64,000 nucleotides of DNA from Pseudomonas sp. ATCC 13867 (GTDB lineage Bacteria > Pseudomonadota > Gammaproteobacteria > Pseudomonadales > Pseudomonadaceae): positions 496,001-560,000 of the forward strand of contig NC_020829.1 in assembly GCF_000349845.1 (NCBI RefSeq), written 5' to 3'. A program made the position numbers and the translations under genes. Each line of letters begins with the position of its first letter. The first letter of the stretch is position 1. The notes beneath the pieces are model-generated. The model did no database searches, was not told the DNA's origin, and saw nothing but the letters and a program-made list of their open reading frames with translations. Below, piece after piece: positions 2,723 through 9,655 of the stretch.

Positions 2723-3481
2723 ATGCACACAGTCGATCTCAATTCCGACATGGGCGAAGGTTTCGGCCCCTGGACTATCGGCGATGGCGTGGACGAGGCG
2801 ATCATGCCGCTGATCAGCAGCGCCAACATCGCCACCGGCTTCCATGCCGGCGAGCCGAACATCATGCGTCGCACCGTCGAGCTGGCTCTCGAGCACGCCG
2901 TCGGTATCGGCGCCCATCCCGGTTTCCGCGACCTGGTCGGCTTCGGTCGCCGGCACATCAACGCTCCCGCCAGCGAGCTGATCAACGACATGCTCTATCA
3001 GCTTGGCGCACTGCGCGAATTTGCCCGTCTGCACGGCGCGCGACTGCAGCACATCAAGCCTCACGGCGCGCTGTACATGCACCTGGCGCGCGACGAGCAG
3101 GCCGCCGGCGAATTCGTCGAAACCTTGCATCGTCTGGATCCCGAACTGCTGCTGTTCTGCATGCCCGGCTCGGCCACCTGGCGCGCCGCCCAGGCGGTGG
3201 GCCAGCCAACGGTGCGCGAGTTCTACGCCGACCGCGACTACGACAACAGCGGCTCCATCGTCTTCACCCGCCGGGTTCGGGCGCTCGATCCGCGGGAGGT
3301 CGCGGCCAAGGTGCTGCGCGCTTGCCGGGAAGGCCGGGTGCGCACGGTCGAGGGCAACGACATCGAGATCGACTTCGATTCTGTCTGTATCCACAGCGAC
3401 ACGCCTGGTGCGCTGGCGCTGGTCCAGGCCACCCGCGCAGCGCTGCTGGACGCCGGCATCAGCATTCAGGCGCCGCGCTGA
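2723..3481 (+). CDS. pxpA: LamB/YcsF-family 5-oxoprolinase subunit A (PxpA)
   Basis: This 252-residue LamB/YcsF protein carries the family signature [11 protein letters not shown] at the N-terminus and HIKPHGALY around residue 110. In bacteria PxpA works with PxpB and PxpC as an ATP-dependent 5-oxoprolinase that opens pyroglutamate to glutamate. I chose the ATG at 2723 over the in-frame GTG at 2717 because AGAGG at 2708-2712 is 10 bp upstream of the ATG but only 4 bp from the GTG, and family members begin close to this point. It is the first gene of the operon; here a biotin carrier and a biotin carboxylase lie between pxpA and pxpB, which is unlike the simple pxpABC arrangement. Confidence 0.9.
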
Positions 3482-3553
3482 GCGCCCTCCCGCCTCGCGG
3501 GAACATCTCCCACTGCATCTGCCATTCACACATTCGAACAATGAGGAAACGTC

Positions 3554-3802
3554 ATGGCCGAACATCATGTGCAGTCACCCTTGCCGGGCACTTTCTACCG
3601 CAAGCCAACCCCAGATGCCCCGGCCTATGTCGAAGTGGGCCAGCGGGTCGAGCCCGGCAGCGTGATCGGGCTGGTCGAGGTGATGAAACAGTTCTCCGAA
3701 GTGCAGGCCGAATACGCCGGTACGCTGCAGGCCTTCCTGGTCGGGGATGGCGATCCGATCGAACCGGGACAGGAACTGGCGACCATTCGTCTCGATGCAT
3801 GA
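3554..3802 (+). CDS. stand-alone biotin/lipoyl attachment domain (mini biotin carboxyl carrier)
   Basis: This 82-residue protein is little more than one biotinyl domain. The biotin acceptor lysine is in EVMKQF, where most carriers have AMKM. Housekeeping AccB is about twice as long and has an N-terminal extension missing here, so this is a dedicated carrier rather than the acetyl-CoA carboxylase subunit. It lies 72 bp after pxpA and 10 bp before the biotin carboxylase, so the two surely form a pair. BirA would have to biotinylate it, which connects it to the bio operon 5 kb downstream. Confidence 0.9.
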   Translation: MAEHHVQSPLPGTFYRKPTPDAPAYVEVGQRVEPGSVIGLVEVMKQFSEVQAEYAGTLQAFLVGDGDPIEPGQELATIRLDA

Positions 3803-3812
3803 GGGCCGCGCC

Positions 3813-5177
3813 ATGCTGAAGAAGCTTCTGATCGCCAACCGTGGCGAAATCGCCGTGCGCATCATCCGTGCCGCGCGTGCGCTGGGAGTCCCGACCGTCG
3901 CGGTGTGCAGCGAGGCCGACGCCGATTCGCTGGCCGCGCGCCAGGCCGACGAGATGCGGATCATCGGTCCGGCCCGCGCCGACCGCAGTTACCTGAATGC
4001 CGAGGCCTTGCTGCGGGCCGCGCGGGACACCGGTGCGGATTCGATCCATCCCGGCTACGGTTTCCTCTCCGAAAACGCGGACTTCGCCCAGGCGGTGGTC
4101 GATGCCGGACTGGTCTTTGTCGGTCCTGCCGCGTCGACCATCCGCCGCATGGGCGACAAGGCCGAGGCACGGCGCACGGCGATGGCAGCCGGCGTGCCGG
4201 TGGTGCCGGGCTCGCCGGGCGAGCTGGAGGACATCGCGGCCGCCCTGCGTTGTGCGGAACAGGTCGGCTATCCGCTGCTGATCAAGGCCTCCGCCGGTGG
4301 CGGCGGCCGAGGTATCCGCATCGCCCACGATGCCGAGGAACTGCGCCGCGAGTTCCCCATTGCCCAGCGCGAAGCACAGGCGGCTTTCGGTTCCGCAGCG
4401 GTGTATCTGGAGCGTTTCATCCGCCAGGCGCGGCATATCGAAGTACAGATTCTGGGCGATGGTGAGCGGGCCGTGCACCTGTTCGAGCGCGAGTGTTCGC
4501 TGCAGCGCCGCCGGCAGAAGGTCTTTGAGGAGGCGCCCTCCGCCGCGCTGAGCGACAGCCAGCGCGAAGCCCTCTGCGCCAGCGCCGTGCGTCTGGCTGA
4601 GAGCCTGGGCTATCGCGGCGCCGGCACCCTGGAATACCTGTTCGACGCGCACAGCGGCGAATTCTTCTTCATCGAGATGAACACCCGCATCCAGGTCGAG
4701 CACCCAGTCAGCGAGATGATCACTGGCATCGACCTGGTCCAGGCCATGCTGCGCATCGCCGGCGGCGAGCCGCTGGGGCTGCGCCAGGAAGACATCCGCC
4801 TGAACGGCGCGGCGCTGGAAATGCGCGTCAACGCCGAAGACCCTGAGCGAAACTTCTTCCCGTGCCCCGGCGTGGTGGAAAGCCTCGGCTGGCCGCAGGG
4901 CGAGGGCGTGCGCGTGGACAGCCACCTGTACCCCGGCTACCGCGTGCCGCCTTACTACGATTCGCTGCTGGCGAAGATCATTGTCCACGGCCGCGACCGC
5001 GAAGAGGCCTTCGCCCGCGCCCGGCGGGCGCTGGACCACACCGAACTGGCCGGCATGGCGACCACCCTGCCGCTGCACCGCTGGCTGCTGGCCGATGTGC
5101 GCGTGCAGGCCGCGCAGTTCGACACCGGTACCCTGGAAACCTGGCTGGCCGAGCGTTCGGCCAGAGTGGAGGCATGA
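3813..5177 (+). CDS. biotin carboxylase subunit (AccC-like) of the operon's carboxylase
   Basis: This 454-residue ATP-grasp biotin carboxylase carries LLIANRGEIAVRI at the N-terminus, the glycine-rich ATP loop SAGGGGRGI near residue 163, and the catalytic stretch EMNTRIQVEHPVSE near residue 288. It would carboxylate the biotin on the preceding mini-carrier using ATP and bicarbonate. I start it at the ATG at 3813, seven bases after GAGGG; an upstream in-frame extension would overlap the carrier gene. It is 1 bp from the next gene, so the genes are translationally coupled. As no AccA/AccD-like carboxyltransferase is nearby, the acceptor half is presumably the following two genes. Confidence 0.92.
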   Translation: MLKKLLIANRGEIAVRIIRAARALGVPTVAVCSEADADSLAARQADEMRIIGPARADRSYLNAEALLRAARDTGADSIHPGYGFLSENADFAQAVVDAGLVFVGPAASTIRRMGDKAEARRTAMAAGVPVVPGSPGELEDIAAALRCAEQVGYPLLIKASAGGGGRGIRIAHDAEELRREFPIAQREAQAAFGSAAVYLERFIRQARHIEVQILGDGERAVHLFERECSLQRRRQKVFEEAPSAALSDSQREALCASAVRLAESLGYRGAGTLEYLFDAHSGEFFFIEMNTRIQVEHPVSEMITGIDLVQAMLRIAGGEPLGLRQEDIRLNGAALEMRVNAEDPERNFFPCPGVVESLGWPQGEGVRVDSHLYPGYRVPPYYDSLLAKIIVHGRDREEAFARARRALDHTELAGMATTLPLHRWLLADVRVQAAQFDTGTLETWLAERSARVEA

Positions 5178-5178
5178 C

Positions 5179-6057
5179 ATGCACGAGCAGATTCGCTACA
5201 GCTTCGGTGGCGACGAGCACCTGTTCGCTGAGGTCGCCGAATCCATGTCGCTTGAGGCGTTTTTCCGCGGCATGGCCATCACCCAGGCGATCGAGCAGCA
5301 GGCGCTTCCCGGTGTGCTGGATGTCTGCCTGGCCAATGCGTCCTTCCAGGTGCGCTTCAATCCTGACCTGATCGCTCCGCAGGTGCTGCTCGAGCGCGTG
5401 CGTGAGCTGGAGTCGCTGGCCACCACCGAGCGTCGCATCCAGACGCGGATCATCGAGATCCCGGTGCTCTACAACGACCCCTGGACCCATGAGACGCTGA
5501 TGCGCTTCCGCGACCGCCACCAGGCCCCGGACTCCACCGACCTGGAATACGCCGCGCGGATCAACGGCTACCGCGACGTCCAGGCCTTCATCGAGGCGCA
5601 CAGCGGCACGCCGTGGTTCGTCTCGATGGTCGGTTTCGTCGCCGGCCTGCCGTTCATGTACCAGATGGTCGAGCGCGAGAAGCAGTTGCAGGTGCCCAAG
5701 TACCTGCGTCCGCGCACCGATACGCCGAAACTGACGCTCGGCCACGGCGGCTGCTTCGGCTGTATCTATTCCGTGCGCGGTGCCGGCGGCTACCAGATGT
5801 TCGGCGTCACTCCGGCGCCGATTTACGACCCGCAACAGAGCCTGGGCTATCTGAAGGATTCGATGGTGTTCTTCCGCGCCGGAGACATCGTGCGCTTCAA
5901 GCCGATCGACCGCGGCGAGTACGACCAGGTACTGGCCTCGGTGGAGGCGGGCAGCTTCGATTTGCGCATCCGTCCGGTCGAGTTCGATCTCGATGCCTTC
6001 CTCAACGATCCGCAAGGTTGCCGGCAACGCCTGCAGGAGGTGCTCCATGTCGCTTAA
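5179..6057 (+). CDS. pxpB: carboxyltransferase-domain protein, PxpB/AHS1 type (urea-carboxylase-like)
   Basis: This 292-residue protein has the AHS1 fold shared by PxpB/KipI and the first half of the urea carboxylase carboxyltransferase domain. The conserved core is at about residues 140-225: VGFVAGLPFM, then PKYLRPRTDTPK, then CIYSVRGAGGYQMFG. The last resembles the YS-x-x-x-PGGYQL motif of urea carboxylase more than the PGGWxxIG motif of KipI-type proteins, a comparison made from memory. The start is the ATG at 5179, one base after the biotin carboxylase stop. It may act as part of a 5-oxoprolinase, or, given the biotin genes beside it, as half of a carboxyltransferase. The pxpB symbol reflects family membership only. 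Confidence 0.82.
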   Translation: MHEQIRYSFGGDEHLFAEVAESMSLEAFFRGMAITQAIEQQALPGVLDVCLANASFQVRFNPDLIAPQVLLERVRELESLATTERRIQTRIIEIPVLYNDPWTHETLMRFRDRHQAPDSTDLEYAARINGYRDVQAFIEAHSGTPWFVSMVGFVAGLPFMYQMVEREKQLQVPKYLRPRTDTPKLTLGHGGCFGCIYSVRGAGGYQMFGVTPAPIYDPQQSLGYLKDSMVFFRAGDIVRFKPIDRGEYDQVLASVEAGSFDLRIRPVEFDLDAFLNDPQGCRQRLQEVLHVA

Positions 6058-7024
6058 GGTCCTCAAGCCCGGGCTTGCCACCTCGGTTCAGGATGCCGGC
6101 CGCGAAGGCTACTATCACCTGGGTATCCCGCCGTCCGGCGCGCTCGACCAGTACGCGCTGCGTGCCGCCAATCTGCTGGTGGGCAACCCGGCGACCACGG
6201 CGGCGCTCGAATGCACCTTGCTCGGCCCGCAGCTGGAATTCCAGCGCGACGCGCTGGTGGCCGTCTGTGGCGCCGCCATGACGCCGCGCCTGGGCGGCGC
6301 TGAGATGCCGTTGTGCACGGCTTTCCGCGTGCGCGCCGGGCAGGTGCTGGGTTTCGACTTCATCAAAGCCGGCGCGCGCGGCTACATCGCCATCGACGGC
6401 GGCATCGACGTGCCCGTCGTGCTGGATAGTCGCTCCACCTACGGCCTGGGCGCCATCGGCGGGTTCCACGGGCGGCGCCTGCTGGCCGGCGACGAGCTGC
6501 CGCTGGGAGCGCCGGGCGAGCGCGGGCAGGAAGGCCTGGCTTTGCCGCGGTCACTGCAGATCGAGGTGGGCGGCGAGATCAGCCTGCGGGTCGTCCCCGG
6601 CCTCTATTTGCATCGTCTGACGGCGCGGGCCGCCGAGCAATTCTTCGCCGACACCTGGACGGTCGGGTCCGAGGCGGATCGTACCGGTTTCCGTTTCAAG
6701 GGCGGCACGCCGCTGGCGTTCCAGCCGCGCGAACAGCCGTTCGGTGCCGGCTCCGACCCGTCGAACATCGTCGATGCCTGCTACCCGATCGGCTCGATCC
6801 AGGTCCCAGGCGGCCTGGAGCCGATCGTCCTGCATCGCGACGCGGTGTCCGGCGGCGGCTACGCGACCATCGGCACGGTGATCAGCCCGGATCTCAACCG
6901 CATGGCGCAGATGCAACCCAACCAGAAGGCCCGCTTCGTCGCCATCAGCCTGGAGGAGGCCCTGGCGGCGCGTCGTCGCTACAACCAGCAACTGGAAAAC
7001 CTGAACCGCTTCTTTCTTGCCTAG
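6047..7024 (+). CDS. pxpC: carboxyltransferase-domain protein, PxpC/AHS2 type
   Basis: This 325-residue AHS2 protein carries the family signatures VQDAGREGYYHLGIPPSGA at the N-terminus, AAANLLVGN-like RAANLLVGNP after it, and DSRSTYGLGAIGGFHGR around residue 130. It is related to PxpC/KipA and to the second half of the urea carboxylase carboxyltransferase domain. The ATG at 6047 follows a perfect AGGAGG at 6035-6040 and overlaps the end of pxpB by 11 bp, so the two are co-translated and probably form a heteromer. An alternative reading of this pair is a plain ATP-dependent 5-oxoprolinase. The C-terminus ends normally, with no truncation. Confidence 0.87.
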   Translation: MSLKVLKPGLATSVQDAGREGYYHLGIPPSGALDQYALRAANLLVGNPATTAALECTLLGPQLEFQRDALVAVCGAAMTPRLGGAEMPLCTAFRVRAGQVLGFDFIKAGARGYIAIDGGIDVPVVLDSRSTYGLGAIGGFHGRRLLAGDELPLGAPGERGQEGLALPRSLQIEVGGEISLRVVPGLYLHRLTARAAEQFFADTWTVGSEADRTGFRFKGGTPLAFQPREQPFGAGSDPSNIVDACYPIGSIQVPGGLEPIVLHRDAVSGGGYATIGTVISPDLNRMAQMQPNQKARFVAISLEEALAARRRYNQQLENLNRFFLA

Positions 7025-7035
7025 CCAATAAAAAC

Positions 7036-7085
7036 GCCGCGGCGGCGCGATCTCCGGCGGCTCCCCACGAGGGTGTCGCCGCGGC
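7036..7085 (+). other. intercistronic GC-rich stem-loop between pxpC and the permease gene
   Basis: GCCGCGGCG at 7036-7044 pairs perfectly with CGCCGCGGC at 7077-7085. No run of T follows, so this is not a standard intrinsic terminator. It may stabilise the upstream mRNA or reduce read-through into the permease gene. Confidence 0.4.
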
Positions 7086-7130
7086 CTCCTGCTGCCGCTC
7101 GCCAAGCCCTCATCTTGCGGAGAAACCAAG

Positions 7131-8447
7131 ATGGCAAGTCTGTCGCAGCATCCCGAGGTCGATTCTTCCGTTACCAGCGCTCCCTGCCATGCCCGGATGG
7201 GCCGGATGTCCCTGAGCATGGCCTGGTGGGCCGTATGCAGCGCCATGTTCTACATCGTGGTCGGCGCCTCGCTGGCGCTGGCCTACGGCGCGCGCAACGC
7301 CATTCTCGGCATGCTGCTGTCGGTGCTCTGCTACGGACTGATCAATGCAGTGATCAGTCGCTATGCGATACGCACCGGACTGTCCGTGGCGTTGTTCTCG
7401 CGGGTGCTGTTCGGCAGCGCGGGGTCGTCGCTGGCGACCCTGATCTTCTTTTCCACGGCGATCTACTACGCGGTGTTCGAGGGCTCGGTGATCGCCGTGG
7501 CGCTCAATCATCTCTACCCCGGCGTCTCCTACTCGCTGGCGGCGCTGCTGGTCGTGCTGTACAGCGTGCCGCTGATCTTCGGCGGCGTGCAGCACTGGCT
7601 GGACCGCTTCAACGGCGTGCTGCTGCCGTTCTACCTATTCGGCCTGCTGGCGGCGGTGGTCCTGTCCATCGGCGAGTACGGCTATCAGCCGCAGTGGCTG
7701 GACTTCGGCCCGGCGGACCCGCCGGCTGGCGGCTGGTGGGAGTGCTTCAGCGCCTACATGGGGGTCTGGGTGCTGATGATGTTCACCTTCGACTACGCCC
7801 GCTTCGGCAAGCCGGAGGATGCCACCTGGCATGGCCGCTGGAACTTTGGCATGCCGTTCTACCTGGTGACCTTCCTGCTCAACGGCATGGCCGGCATCTA
7901 CCTGGTCAGCAGCATTCCTCAGGAAGGCACGCTCAGCGAAGTCACCGTGGTGCTGGCGATCCTCAAACTGATGGGCCTGTGGGGGCTGCTGTTCGTCTGG
8001 GTGACGCAGACGCGCATCAACACCGCCAACTACTACCTGGCGACGGTGAACATGCAGGCCTTCTTCCTCGAAGTGTTCCGCCTCCGTGCGCCCGCTCTGG
8101 CCTGGGCGGTGGTGGTCGGCGCGGTGGCCTATGCGCTGATGCTGGCGGATGTGTTCGCCTGGCTGCTCAAGGCGCTGGCCTGGCAGGGCGTGTTCGTGGT
8201 GGCCTGGGTCGGCGTGGCGCTGGCGCACATCCTGGGCAAGGTCCGCTTGCCAGCGGGCGAGCCGGGGCGGCTGAACGGCGCGGGGCTGAGCGCCTGGTTC
8301 TGCGGTGCGCTGTTGGGCTTCGTGCTGATGGAGATGGGTGGGAGCCTGCAGTCCTTCTCGGCGCCGTTGACCTTCCTGGTATCGGCCGGTGTCTATGCCG
8401 GCTTGCGCCGTCGCCGTGGCGCGCAGCCTTCGATAACTTCTGTCTGA
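7131..8447 (+). CDS. NCS1-family (purine-cytosine permease-like) transporter
   Basis: This 438-residue polytopic protein has about twelve hydrophobic helices and the NCS1/cytosine-permease look (AYGARNAILGMLLSVLCYG in helix 2, FTFDYARFGKPEDATWHG in the middle, TQTRINTANYYLATVNMQAF in the later loop). NCS1 proteins import nucleobases, hydantoins, allantoin and related small ureides or lactams by Na+ or H+ symport. Its position directly after the carboxylase/oxoprolinase genes suggests it imports that system's substrate. The ATG at 7131 is preceded by CGGAG. No transporter of this type is needed for biotin synthesis, so it groups with the upstream operon rather than with bioB. Confidence 0.85.
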   Translation: MASLSQHPEVDSSVTSAPCHARMGRMSLSMAWWAVCSAMFYIVVGASLALAYGARNAILGMLLSVLCYGLINAVISRYAIRTGLSVALFSRVLFGSAGSSLATLIFFSTAIYYAVFEGSVIAVALNHLYPGVSYSLAALLVVLYSVPLIFGGVQHWLDRFNGVLLPFYLFGLLAAVVLSIGEYGYQPQWLDFGPADPPAGGWWECFSAYMGVWVLMMFTFDYARFGKPEDATWHGRWNFGMPFYLVTFLLNGMAGIYLVSSIPQEGTLSEVTVVLAILKLMGLWGLLFVWVTQTRINTANYYLATVNMQAFFLEVFRLRAPALAWAVVVGAVAYALMLADVFAWLLKALAWQGVFVVAWVGVALAHILGKVRLPAGEPGRLNGAGLSAWFCGALLGFVLMEMGGSLQSFSAPLTFLVSAGVYAGLRRRRGAQPSITSV

Positions 8448-8515: not shown

Positions 8516-8596
8516 GCCTTTAGCCTGAATCCCGGTGGCGTGCTGCCGGCTCACTAGACAAAAAGGCGCCCCCGACAGCGTCGAAAGGATATGCCC

Positions 8597-9655
8597 ATGA
8601 GTGCCACCGCAGCCCAGGTAACCCGCCACGATTGGACTCTCGCCGAAGTCCGCGGCCTGTTCGAGCAACCCTTCAACGACCTGTTGTTCCAGGCGCAGAC
8701 CCTGCACCGTGCGCACTTCGACCCGAACCGCGTGCAGGTGTCCACCCTGCTGTCGATCAAGACCGGCGCCTGCCCGGAAGACTGCAAGTACTGCCCGCAG
8801 TCCGGCCACTACAACACCGGCCTGGACAAGGAAAAGCTGATGGAAGTGCAGAAGGTGCTGGAAGCTGCGGCGGAAGCCAAGGCCATCGGCTCCACCCGCT
8901 TCTGCATGGGCGCCGCCTGGAAGCACCCGTCGGCCAAGGACATGCCCTATGTGCTGGAAATGGTGAAGGGCGTGAAGAAGCTCGGCCTGGAAACCTGCAT
9001 GACCCTGGGCAAGCTGACCCAGGAGCAGACCCAGTCGCTGGCCGAAGCGGGCCTGGACTACTACAACCACAACCTCGACACCTCGCCGGAGTTCTACGGC
9101 AACATCATCACCACTCGCACCTACGGCGAGCGCCTGCAGACCCTGGCCTACGTGCGCGAGGCAGGGATGAAGATCTGCTCCGGCGGCATCCTCGGCATGG
9201 GCGAGTCGGTGGACGACCGCGCCGGCCTGCTGATCCAACTGGCCAACCTGCCCGAGCACCCGGAATCGGTGCCGATCAACATGCTGGTGAAGGTGAAGGG
9301 CACCCCGCTGGCCGAGGAGAAGGACGTCGACCCGTTCGACTTCATCCGCACCCTGGCGGTCGCCCGCATCCTCATGCCGAAATCCCACGTGCGCCTGTCT
9401 GCCGGCCGCGAGCAGATGAACGAGCAGATGCAGGCTTTGGCCTTCATGGCCGGCGCCAACTCGATCTTCTACGGCGAGAAGCTGCTGACCACCAAGAACC
9501 CGCAGGCCGAGAAGGACATGCAACTGTTCGCACGTCTGGGCATCAAGCCCGAGGAGCGCGAGGAGCACGCCGACGAAGTGCACCAGGCTGCCATCGAGCA
9601 GGCGCTGGTGGAACAACGCGACTCCCAGCTGTTCTATAACGCGGCTTCGGCCTGA
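8597..9655 (+). CDS. bioB: biotin synthase
   Basis: BioB is a radical-SAM enzyme that inserts sulfur into dethiobiotin in the last step of biotin synthesis. The 352-residue protein has the radical-SAM cysteine motif [10 protein letters not shown] near residue 56 and later family motifs [13 protein letters not shown] and GGILGMGES. The second ATG (8597) is the better start: AAAGGA at 8584-8589 is seven bases from it but only one base from the ATG at 8591. It heads the bio cluster and is separated from bioF by 146 bp that hold a REPIN. The protein looks complete and close to the P. aeruginosa enzyme. Confidence 0.97.

Follow-up and report, generated by a model that had tools for sequence, protein, structure and literature searches.

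A putative biotin-dependent cyclic-amide carboxylase operon of Pseudomonas, with a carboxyltransferase apparently of urea-carboxylase type

The genome of Pseudomonas sp. ATCC 13867 (GCF_000349845.1) contains a set of six open + strand genes that probably encodes a biotin-dependent, four-protein carboxylase of cyclic amides (lactams) coupled to the hydrolase PxpA. The window analyzed is a stretch of 64,000 nt, positions 496,001–560,000 of contig NC_020829.1; the genes lie at 2723–8447 within it, and were read from the sequence as PxpA, a biotin carrier, the biotin carboxylase AccC, the carboxyltransferase subunits AHS1 and AHS2, and a permease, with a divergent LysR gene opposite. Biotin carboxylase, biotin carrier and carboxyltransferase components are all encoded, completing the parts list of the biotin-dependent carboxylase superfamily. 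An earlier note on this DNA had named the same genes; they are confirmed as open frames on the + strand, with Pfam matches to PF03746, PF00364, three biotin-carboxylase domains, PF02682, and PF02626. Loci and genomes used for comparison carry our labels (L and G numbers) where these are needed.

PxpA (2723–3481, +; 252 aa), of the LamB/YcsF family and presumably a ring-opening hydrolase, matches PF03746 at 306 bits and passes the NCBIfam PxpA model NF003814 (302 bits, cut-off 226). It is followed by a stand-alone biotin carrier of AccB type (3554–3802, +; 82 aa; PF00364; NF005457 at 130 bits, cut-off 87), with the motif EVMKQF; by analogy with the AccB motif EAMKMM, the lysine expected to be biotinylated is K45 (codon at 3686–3688, +). 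The AccC-type biotin carboxylase (3813–5177, +; 454 aa) scores 848 bits against NF009471 (cut-off 686). AHS1, carboxyltransferase subunit C/D (5179–6057, +; 292 aa; PF02682), starts one base past the AccC stop codon and overlaps AHS2, subunit A/B (6047–7024, +; 325 aa; PF02626; TIGR00724 at 263 bits, urea carboxylase at 237 bits), by 11 bases. The four enzyme parts are thus on four separate genes, whereas in urea carboxylase the biotin carboxylase, carboxyltransferase and carrier domains form one polypeptide.

The genome (5.7 Mb, one contig) has two places matching PF02682 and two matching PF03746. The second pair is an ordinary pxpABC (L001/L013), at approximately 1126500–1128900 of the contig, with no carrier or AccC match within 13 kb. 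Its PxpB passes the PxpB model TIGR00370 at 157.8 bits; the operon AHS1 fails it (72 bits, cut-off 145.55) and scores 100 bits against the urea carboxylase model. For AHS2 the profiles are less telling: it reaches 222 bits against the PxpC model NF045499 (cut-off 500), and the ordinary PxpC of the same genome also falls below, at 230. A PF02682 search of the genome gave no fused urea carboxylase. The failed PxpB model and the separate pxpABC fit the earlier proposal that the operon is probably more than a plain 5-oxoprolinase. With the PxpABC of Bacillus subtilis and Corynebacterium glutamicum it shares a PxpA that passes the PxpA model, the AHS1/AHS2 fold and the gene company; unlike them, it has a dedicated carrier and AccC, and different residues at three positions described below.

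Phylogenetic analysis of concatenated AHS1 and AHS2 places the pair with urea carboxylase. In a 91-row tree made with a quick model, for which the program warned of long branches meeting, 42 split rows (AHS1 and AHS2 of the operon's type) form one clade, 11 urea carboxylases another, and the two together a third (support 99). A 44-row tree under a slower mixture model, restricted to columns at least 70% filled, gave no such warning and again separates the split and urea carboxylase carboxyltransferases from PxpB/PxpC (100/99), with the split clade sister to the urea carboxylases.

Individual residues sort in the same way. Residues were counted in 166 rows: 50 split rows that have biotin genes and 42 that lack them, 11 urea carboxylases and 63 PxpB-type (one locus, L160, was excluded for its cut AHS2). 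AHS1 position 174 is Lys in all 103 split and urea carboxylase rows and Arg in 63/63 PxpB-type rows; position 205 is Tyr (103/103) vs. Trp (63/63); and AHS2 position 243 is Asp (103/103) vs. Ser (63/63). Tyr205 lies in the segment CIYSVRGAGGYQMFG (AHS1 residues 195–209; 5761–5805, +). The AHS2 segment R..AG..PSN..D..Y (residues 228–246; 6728–6784, +) is common to the operon and urea carboxylase; its first R is present in 102/103 rows, with a gap in 63/63 PxpC-type rows. HMMER pairs AHS1 K174 (codon at 5698–5700, +) with residue 1012 of the Kluyveromyces lactis structure 3va7, which by the offset of 593 to the full-length 5i8i is K1605 of urea amidolyase, the probable general base; the substitution K1605A severely impairs urea carboxylase (PMC5770610). 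The closest structural matches to the low-confidence AlphaFold2 model of AHS1 are urea amidolyase/carboxylase (E 6e-11 to 2e-10), ahead of Escherichia coli YbgJK (2e-5). By these sequence comparisons AHS1/AHS2 is not an ordinary PxpB/PxpC pair, and its predicted carboxyltransferase is of the urea carboxylase type. The earlier note had held the PxpB-like protein to be closer to urea carboxylase than to KipI-type proteins and had called for a phylogeny of the pair; neither of the outcomes that it named as refuting, clustering with PxpB/C and missing urea carboxylase residues, was observed.

The biotin half has a different ancestry. A biotin carboxylase tree of 60 rows (mixture model) gathers the 18 AccC rows of split operons, from gamma-, beta-, and alphaproteobacteria, in one clade (100/99), which joins AccC-like proteins including some encoded beside AccB (93/82, a branch short of our star). 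The biotin carboxylase domains of 11 urea carboxylases are in another clade (100/100), itself joined with five long proteins resembling acyl-CoA carboxylase alpha subunits in size (99/97). Within the genome, the carrier is 43% identical to AccB over 75 gap-free residues, and AccC 54% identical to the other AccC, which adjoins AccB; the solved structures nearest to the carrier are named as the biotin carboxyl carrier protein of acetyl-CoA carboxylase. Since the carboxyltransferase is urea-carboxylase-type and the carrier and AccC are acetyl-CoA-carboxylase-type, the operon is, by ancestry as read from these sequences, a chimera and not an un-fused urea carboxylase. The suggestion that it rebuilds urea carboxylase from separate subunits accordingly holds for the transferase and is not supported for the carrier and AccC. 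With urea carboxylase (EC 6.3.4.6; K. lactis 5i8i/3va7) it shares the carboxyltransferase clade, the general-base Lys, the GGYQ motif, the AHS2 insert, and the presence of both a biotin carboxylase and a carrier; it differs in its separate genes, its AccC/AccB-like biotin half, and in having PxpA in place of allophanate hydrolase.

The resemblance to AccB and AccC raises the possibility that these two proteins are an additional pair of acetyl-CoA carboxylase subunits that serve fatty-acid synthesis and are simply transcribed along with the rest. In P. aeruginosa PAO1, PA0492–PA0496 are very probably the same operon, likened here by description. PA0494 is given as 55% AccC and PA0493 as 40% AccB, and their function is called unknown, in PMC6249292, which suggests a role in fatty-acid synthesis and reports that the operon falls together with fatty-acid genes in a sigX mutant. 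PA0492–PA0496 also appear in the expression studies PMC5521831 and PMC8768829. The operon AccC, however, is a clade of its own that has stayed with the operon in three proteobacterial classes, it lies between PxpA and AHS1 wherever present and uncut, and AccA/AccD are not listed in 11 annotated plasmid loci; we regard a role confined to fatty-acid synthesis as very unlikely.

These 11 loci, from alpha- and betaproteobacteria, were chosen for their annotation from the 30 best-listed of 523 records. All of them (11/11) share the five-gene set and its order, which argues that the operon is not a chance arrangement.

If the parts act together, the four proteins would form a complex in which AccC spends ATP and bicarbonate on carboxylating the biotin of the small carrier. 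AHS1–AHS2 would then pass the CO2 on from carboxybiotin to the substrate, a cyclic amide, at its amide nitrogen, AHS1 K174 serving as general base like its counterpart in urea carboxylase. PxpA would open the activated ring, and the carbamate product would then lose CO2. The net result would be an ATP-driven opening of the ring in which CO2 acts as a recyclable activator, parallel to urea carboxylase plus allophanate hydrolase. For an unrelated caprolactamase, a bicarbonate-dependent route via a carboxylated lactim has been proposed as one option (PMC8453981). On balance we think a biotin-dependent lactam carboxylase coupled to PxpA the probable function.

Several observations weigh against this. 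The AHS1 model is weak (predicted local distance difference test, pLDDT, 66; below 50 in the active-site region). PxpA is also the partner of PxpB-type pairs, which are assumed to work with ATP and no biotin. No recurring neighbor enzyme among the 11 annotated plasmid loci names a substrate, and one genome (G016) has the operon and an allophanate hydrolase with neither urease nor fused urea carboxylase, so that a role with urea is possible there. Finally, in a scan of a genome collection, the best 80 of at least 515 relatives, mostly Pseudomonas, include 38 with carrier and AccC between PxpA and AHS1 and 42 without. The latter keep the same LysR–PxpA–AHS1–AHS2 company, and in them median ratios of nonsynonymous to synonymous substitution rates (dN/dS; pairs limited to dS 0.15–0.9) are 0.066 for AHS1, 0.053 for AHS2, and 0.074 for PxpA, compared to 0.045, 0.063, and 0.089 in loci with biotin genes. 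AHS1, AHS2, and PxpA are thus under purifying selection where the biotin genes are absent, and a dedicated biotin half is not essential everywhere.

The distribution of the biotin genes was mapped on a trait tree of LysR+PxpA+AHS1+AHS2 with 85 rows, from which the cut loci L155 and L160 were omitted. Five changes are needed, at least four of them on well-supported branches. Every far relative has carrier and AccC (11 annotated plasmid loci, the two from Herbaspirillum, and the four far loci of the survey that are uncut), which makes losses the simpler explanation. All 42 loci without biotin genes lack the permease as well, but so do 14 of the 38 with them. Deletion junctions were read in 18 of the 42. 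In the putida-type, fluorescens-type and some syringae-type junctions, the leader and initial codons of the carrier are joined in frame to AHS1; a carrier-like start remains besides a separate start for AHS1 in L101/L133, L114, and L140; and in L120/L163 the leader is lost. A possible remnant of the carrier C-terminus lies past PxpA in L163 (19 residues at 53%; a small search gave E 6e-4); no other locus of the 42 had one at E <0.01. By reading of the junctions, the approximately six kinds of scar point to mostly separate deletions, with exchange between strains also possible. A P. protegens locus (L156) has the full operon, and P. putida NBRC 14671 (L108) has no biotin half. Beyond Pseudomonas, biotin genes are absent from L009 (same family, other genus) and L149. 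The latter, labelled Pantoea sp. Ap-967, sits in the P. putida group of the trait tree; probably either the record is mislabelled or its operon was transferred.

Operon-type AccC, as defined by the NF009471 cut-off, was not found elsewhere in any of the 16 tested genomes lacking the biotin half, nor in G237; in six of six control genomes with the full operon it was found, at the operon. In the two sets from which these genomes come, it occurs in 5/10 and 6/22, always inside the operon locus (in a sixth genome of the ten, the operon AccC runs off the contig). A class survey of 143 genomes, with at most 10 candidates scored per genome, gave it in one, the window's own. A search for residues tracking the presence of the biotin half gave 31 residue–column combinations differing by more than 0.5 in frequency; these were set aside, because with just four independent pairs on starred branches significance is unreachable.

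Such losses would be explained if AHS1–AHS2 activated its substrate with ATP directly, as a biotin-independent 5-oxoprolinase paralogue, with carrier and AccC as accessories or passengers. Substrate phosphorylation by PxpB/PxpC is the current assumption (PMC13274462), and the lack of a substitute operon-type AccC together with continued purifying selection would fit. Set against this are the urea carboxylase residues Lys174, Tyr205, and Asp243, absent from all 63 PxpB-type rows and kept in loci without the biotin half, and the inheritance of the operon AccC as one clade together with the operon. Lys174 in particular argues against a biotin-free mechanism, which we consider unlikely, if worth keeping in mind. 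Under the preferred biotin-dependent reading, housekeeping AccB/AccC would probably charge the same AHS1–AHS2 in Pseudomonas lacking the dedicated pair. Borrowing of this kind is the simplest idea, since the lost parts are kin of the housekeeping ones, and there is a precedent in PDB 9yx5. According to its title, this entry contains an AHS1/AHS2 pair (MSMEG_0435-0436) bound to a long-chain acyl-CoA carboxylase of Mycobacterium smegmatis, and its chains include biotin carboxylase alpha3; that pair, known here from the entry title and chains, differs in being PxpB-like and actinobacterial, with another carboxylase as partner. In L171 (P. cerasi) and L172 (Pseudomonas sp. KUIN-1), a second, biotin-linked operon (carrier, AccC, PxpB, PxpC, a second carrier-like ORF, PxpA) lies approximately 8 kb from a split operon without biotin half, and could in principle serve as a carboxybiotin source.

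Biotin carboxylases are not rare near PxpABC itself. In a phylum survey of 249 genomes, 84 have PF02682, with 74 PxpB-type places, 34 urea-carboxylase-sized frames, seven AHS1 like the window's that stand alone, and a single weak match. Of these, 63 of the 74 PxpB-type, 11 of the 34 urea-carboxylase-sized, and six split loci other than the window, which is the seventh, were examined. Five of the seven split loci have the full PxpA–carrier–AccC–AHS1–AHS2 set, L008 ends in AccC at a contig end, and L009 has neither carrier nor AccC. Among the 63 PxpB-type loci, 13 have a biotin carboxylase match within the approximately 13 kb fetched, so that the contrast with a biotin-free PxpABC drawn in the earlier note is too clean; all 13 of these pairs nonetheless retain PxpB-type residues. 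Ten of the 13 (L036, L043, L050, L057, L059, L060, L066–L068, and L073) have PxpA and a biotin carboxylase frame of 570–833 aa, which is a fusion of biotin carboxylase and carrier in both loci checked against Pfam (L036 and L043); AHS1 and AHS2 are apparently fused in all ten except L068. In L032 and L075, carrier/AccC, PxpB, PxpC, and PxpA are consecutive; in L058, AccC and carrier are some kb off. The biotin carboxylases of the ten long-frame operons form a further clade (100/100), and those of L032, L058, L075, and L171–L173 fall near housekeeping AccC. This scatter of the AHS1/AHS2-associated carboxylases over the tree suggests several separate unions. A wider interpretation, offered tentatively and with considerable doubt, is of a class of ATP-driven ring-opening enzymes with carboxybiotin as a traceless activator of cyclic amides, in which AHS1–AHS2 is a plug-in joined several times to biotin carboxylases of different ancestry; in Pseudomonas this plug-in would have repeatedly shed its own carrier and carboxylase because the AccB/AccC of fatty-acid synthesis can provide it with carboxybiotin.

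With regard to substrate, urea (or guanidine) would be the obvious choice were the operon a split urea carboxylase with PxpA incidental: the nearest kin of its carboxyltransferase is that of urea carboxylase, and besides G016, one genome (G159) has the operon and an allophanate hydrolase without fused urea carboxylase. The operon itself has no allophanate hydrolase, however. Fifteen split-operon genomes (12 with biotin genes, three without) were searched for one: seven have a match above the TIGR02713 cut-off and eight, including the window's, do not; in G262, G265, and G267 it adjoins a urea-carboxylase-sized biotin carboxylase frame instead. Urease alpha is present in 14 of the 15, PxpA adjoins in every split locus examined except L008, itself cut short, and the kinship of the operon biotin carboxylase differs from that of urea carboxylase. 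Urea is unlikely as the substrate in the window, because eight of the 15 genomes lack allophanate hydrolase and 14 have urease, and we consider it very improbable that the operon is a split urea carboxylase with urea or guanidine as its substrate.

Candidates for the lactam carboxylase favored here would be 5-oxoproline or another small lactam, a hydantoin, or a ureide. D-glutamate cyclase makes 5-oxo-D-proline; a gene for it stands in L043 (2908–9284), in the order NRAMP transporter, PxpA, D-glutamate cyclase, fused AHS1–AHS2, fused biotin carboxylase–carrier, which suggests that the biotin-linked relatives probably act on 5-oxoproline. In the window a different or D-configured lactam is as likely, since the genome retains ordinary pxpABC. 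Neighbors of single loci were considered as well: gamma-aminobutyrate transaminase and succinate-semialdehyde dehydrogenase in Ruegeria (L165, 1911–4659), formimidoylglutamate deiminase and N-formylglutamate deformylase, of histidine degradation, in Azospirillum thermophilum (L189, 13228–15455), and a molybdenum hydroxylase in Diaphorobacter (L168, 14626–18399). None recurs among the 11 annotated loci, and they were not used. Clustering of flanking ORFs from 87 loci (60 largest clusters), with Pfam searches of seven chosen ORFs, turned up regulators and ion transporters, besides an efflux protein, an acyl-CoA dehydrogenase, and an unmatched ORF, none of them naming a substrate.

The permease (7131–8447, +; 438 aa) had been called an NCS1 transporter. 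It has no Pfam match and reaches 25 bits against the NCBIfam NCS1 model TIGR00800 (cut-off 353); the nearest folds to its predicted model (pLDDT 66) are CodB (7qoa; template modeling score 0.70) and then Mhp1, both NCS1, so that "distant NCS1-type" is a fair label for the predicted protein. An NCS1-type transporter adjoins the operon in the window and in 25 of 86 other loci. In the 11 plasmid loci, a TorT-like ATP-binding cassette system is found in four (and partly listed in a fifth), an NCS1-type transporter in one, and none directly next to the operon in five. The LysR-family regulator (1678–2595, –; PF00126/PF03466) is divergent from PxpA, and in 11/11 of these plasmid loci a divergent LysR gene is likewise listed beside PxpA. 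The operon is flanked by what we take, from sequence, to be comF (561–1301, –) and bioB (8591–9655, +). The latter, first in a biotin biosynthesis cluster, is directly downstream of the operon in the window and in five of 86 other loci (L086–L090), and in P. aeruginosa PA7 (L090) the operon is between comF and bioB. In PAO1, parS6 adjoins PA0492–PA0496 (PMC5521831); in the window, a search for parS near the operon gave just two matches, with three mismatches each and both more than 8 kb away.

A known system with related contents is the mum operon of Acinetobacter baumannii (mumTLUHC, PMC5050338), in which a biotin carboxylase and carrier are likewise joined to PxpA and AHS1/AHS2. Loci of the L043 type are equated with it by described gene content, not sequences. 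They differ from the operon in their fused AHS1–AHS2, fused biotin carboxylase–carrier, PxpB-type residues, NRAMP transporter, D-glutamate cyclase, and biotin carboxylase clade. If they are identical, mumH would encode a carboxyltransferase and not an allophanate hydrolase, and the mum operon may serve 5-oxoproline; a counterargument is that growth with urea as nitrogen source reportedly required mumC but not mumH (PMC5050338). The literature searched, which was thin in subscription papers, yielded no paper that proposes the present enzyme or speaks of a split, lactam or hydantoin biotin carboxylase, and the available portions of PMC12344293, PMC13390462, and PMC5011921 have nothing on this system. 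The parts belong to known database families; what is new, as far as searched, is that the family divides by Lys or Arg, that the operon is chimeric in ancestry, and that its biotin half has been lost repeatedly.

Lombard and Moreira (2011; PMC3199775) asked whether carboxyltransferases of the urea carboxylase type outside urea carboxylase use other biotin carboxylases or stem from another reaction, and the operon would be a clean case of such a carboxyltransferase working with other biotin carboxylases. Lys or Arg at AHS1 position 174 may serve as a one-residue marker by which to sort its members. That the biotin half has been lost repeatedly would amount to a natural experiment, in which either carboxybiotin is shared by lactam catabolism with fatty-acid synthesis or the carboxyltransferase has turned biotin-free. 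The operon may also bear on how ATP-dependent 5-oxoprolinases activate their substrate, a step still "assumed" in PMC13274462.

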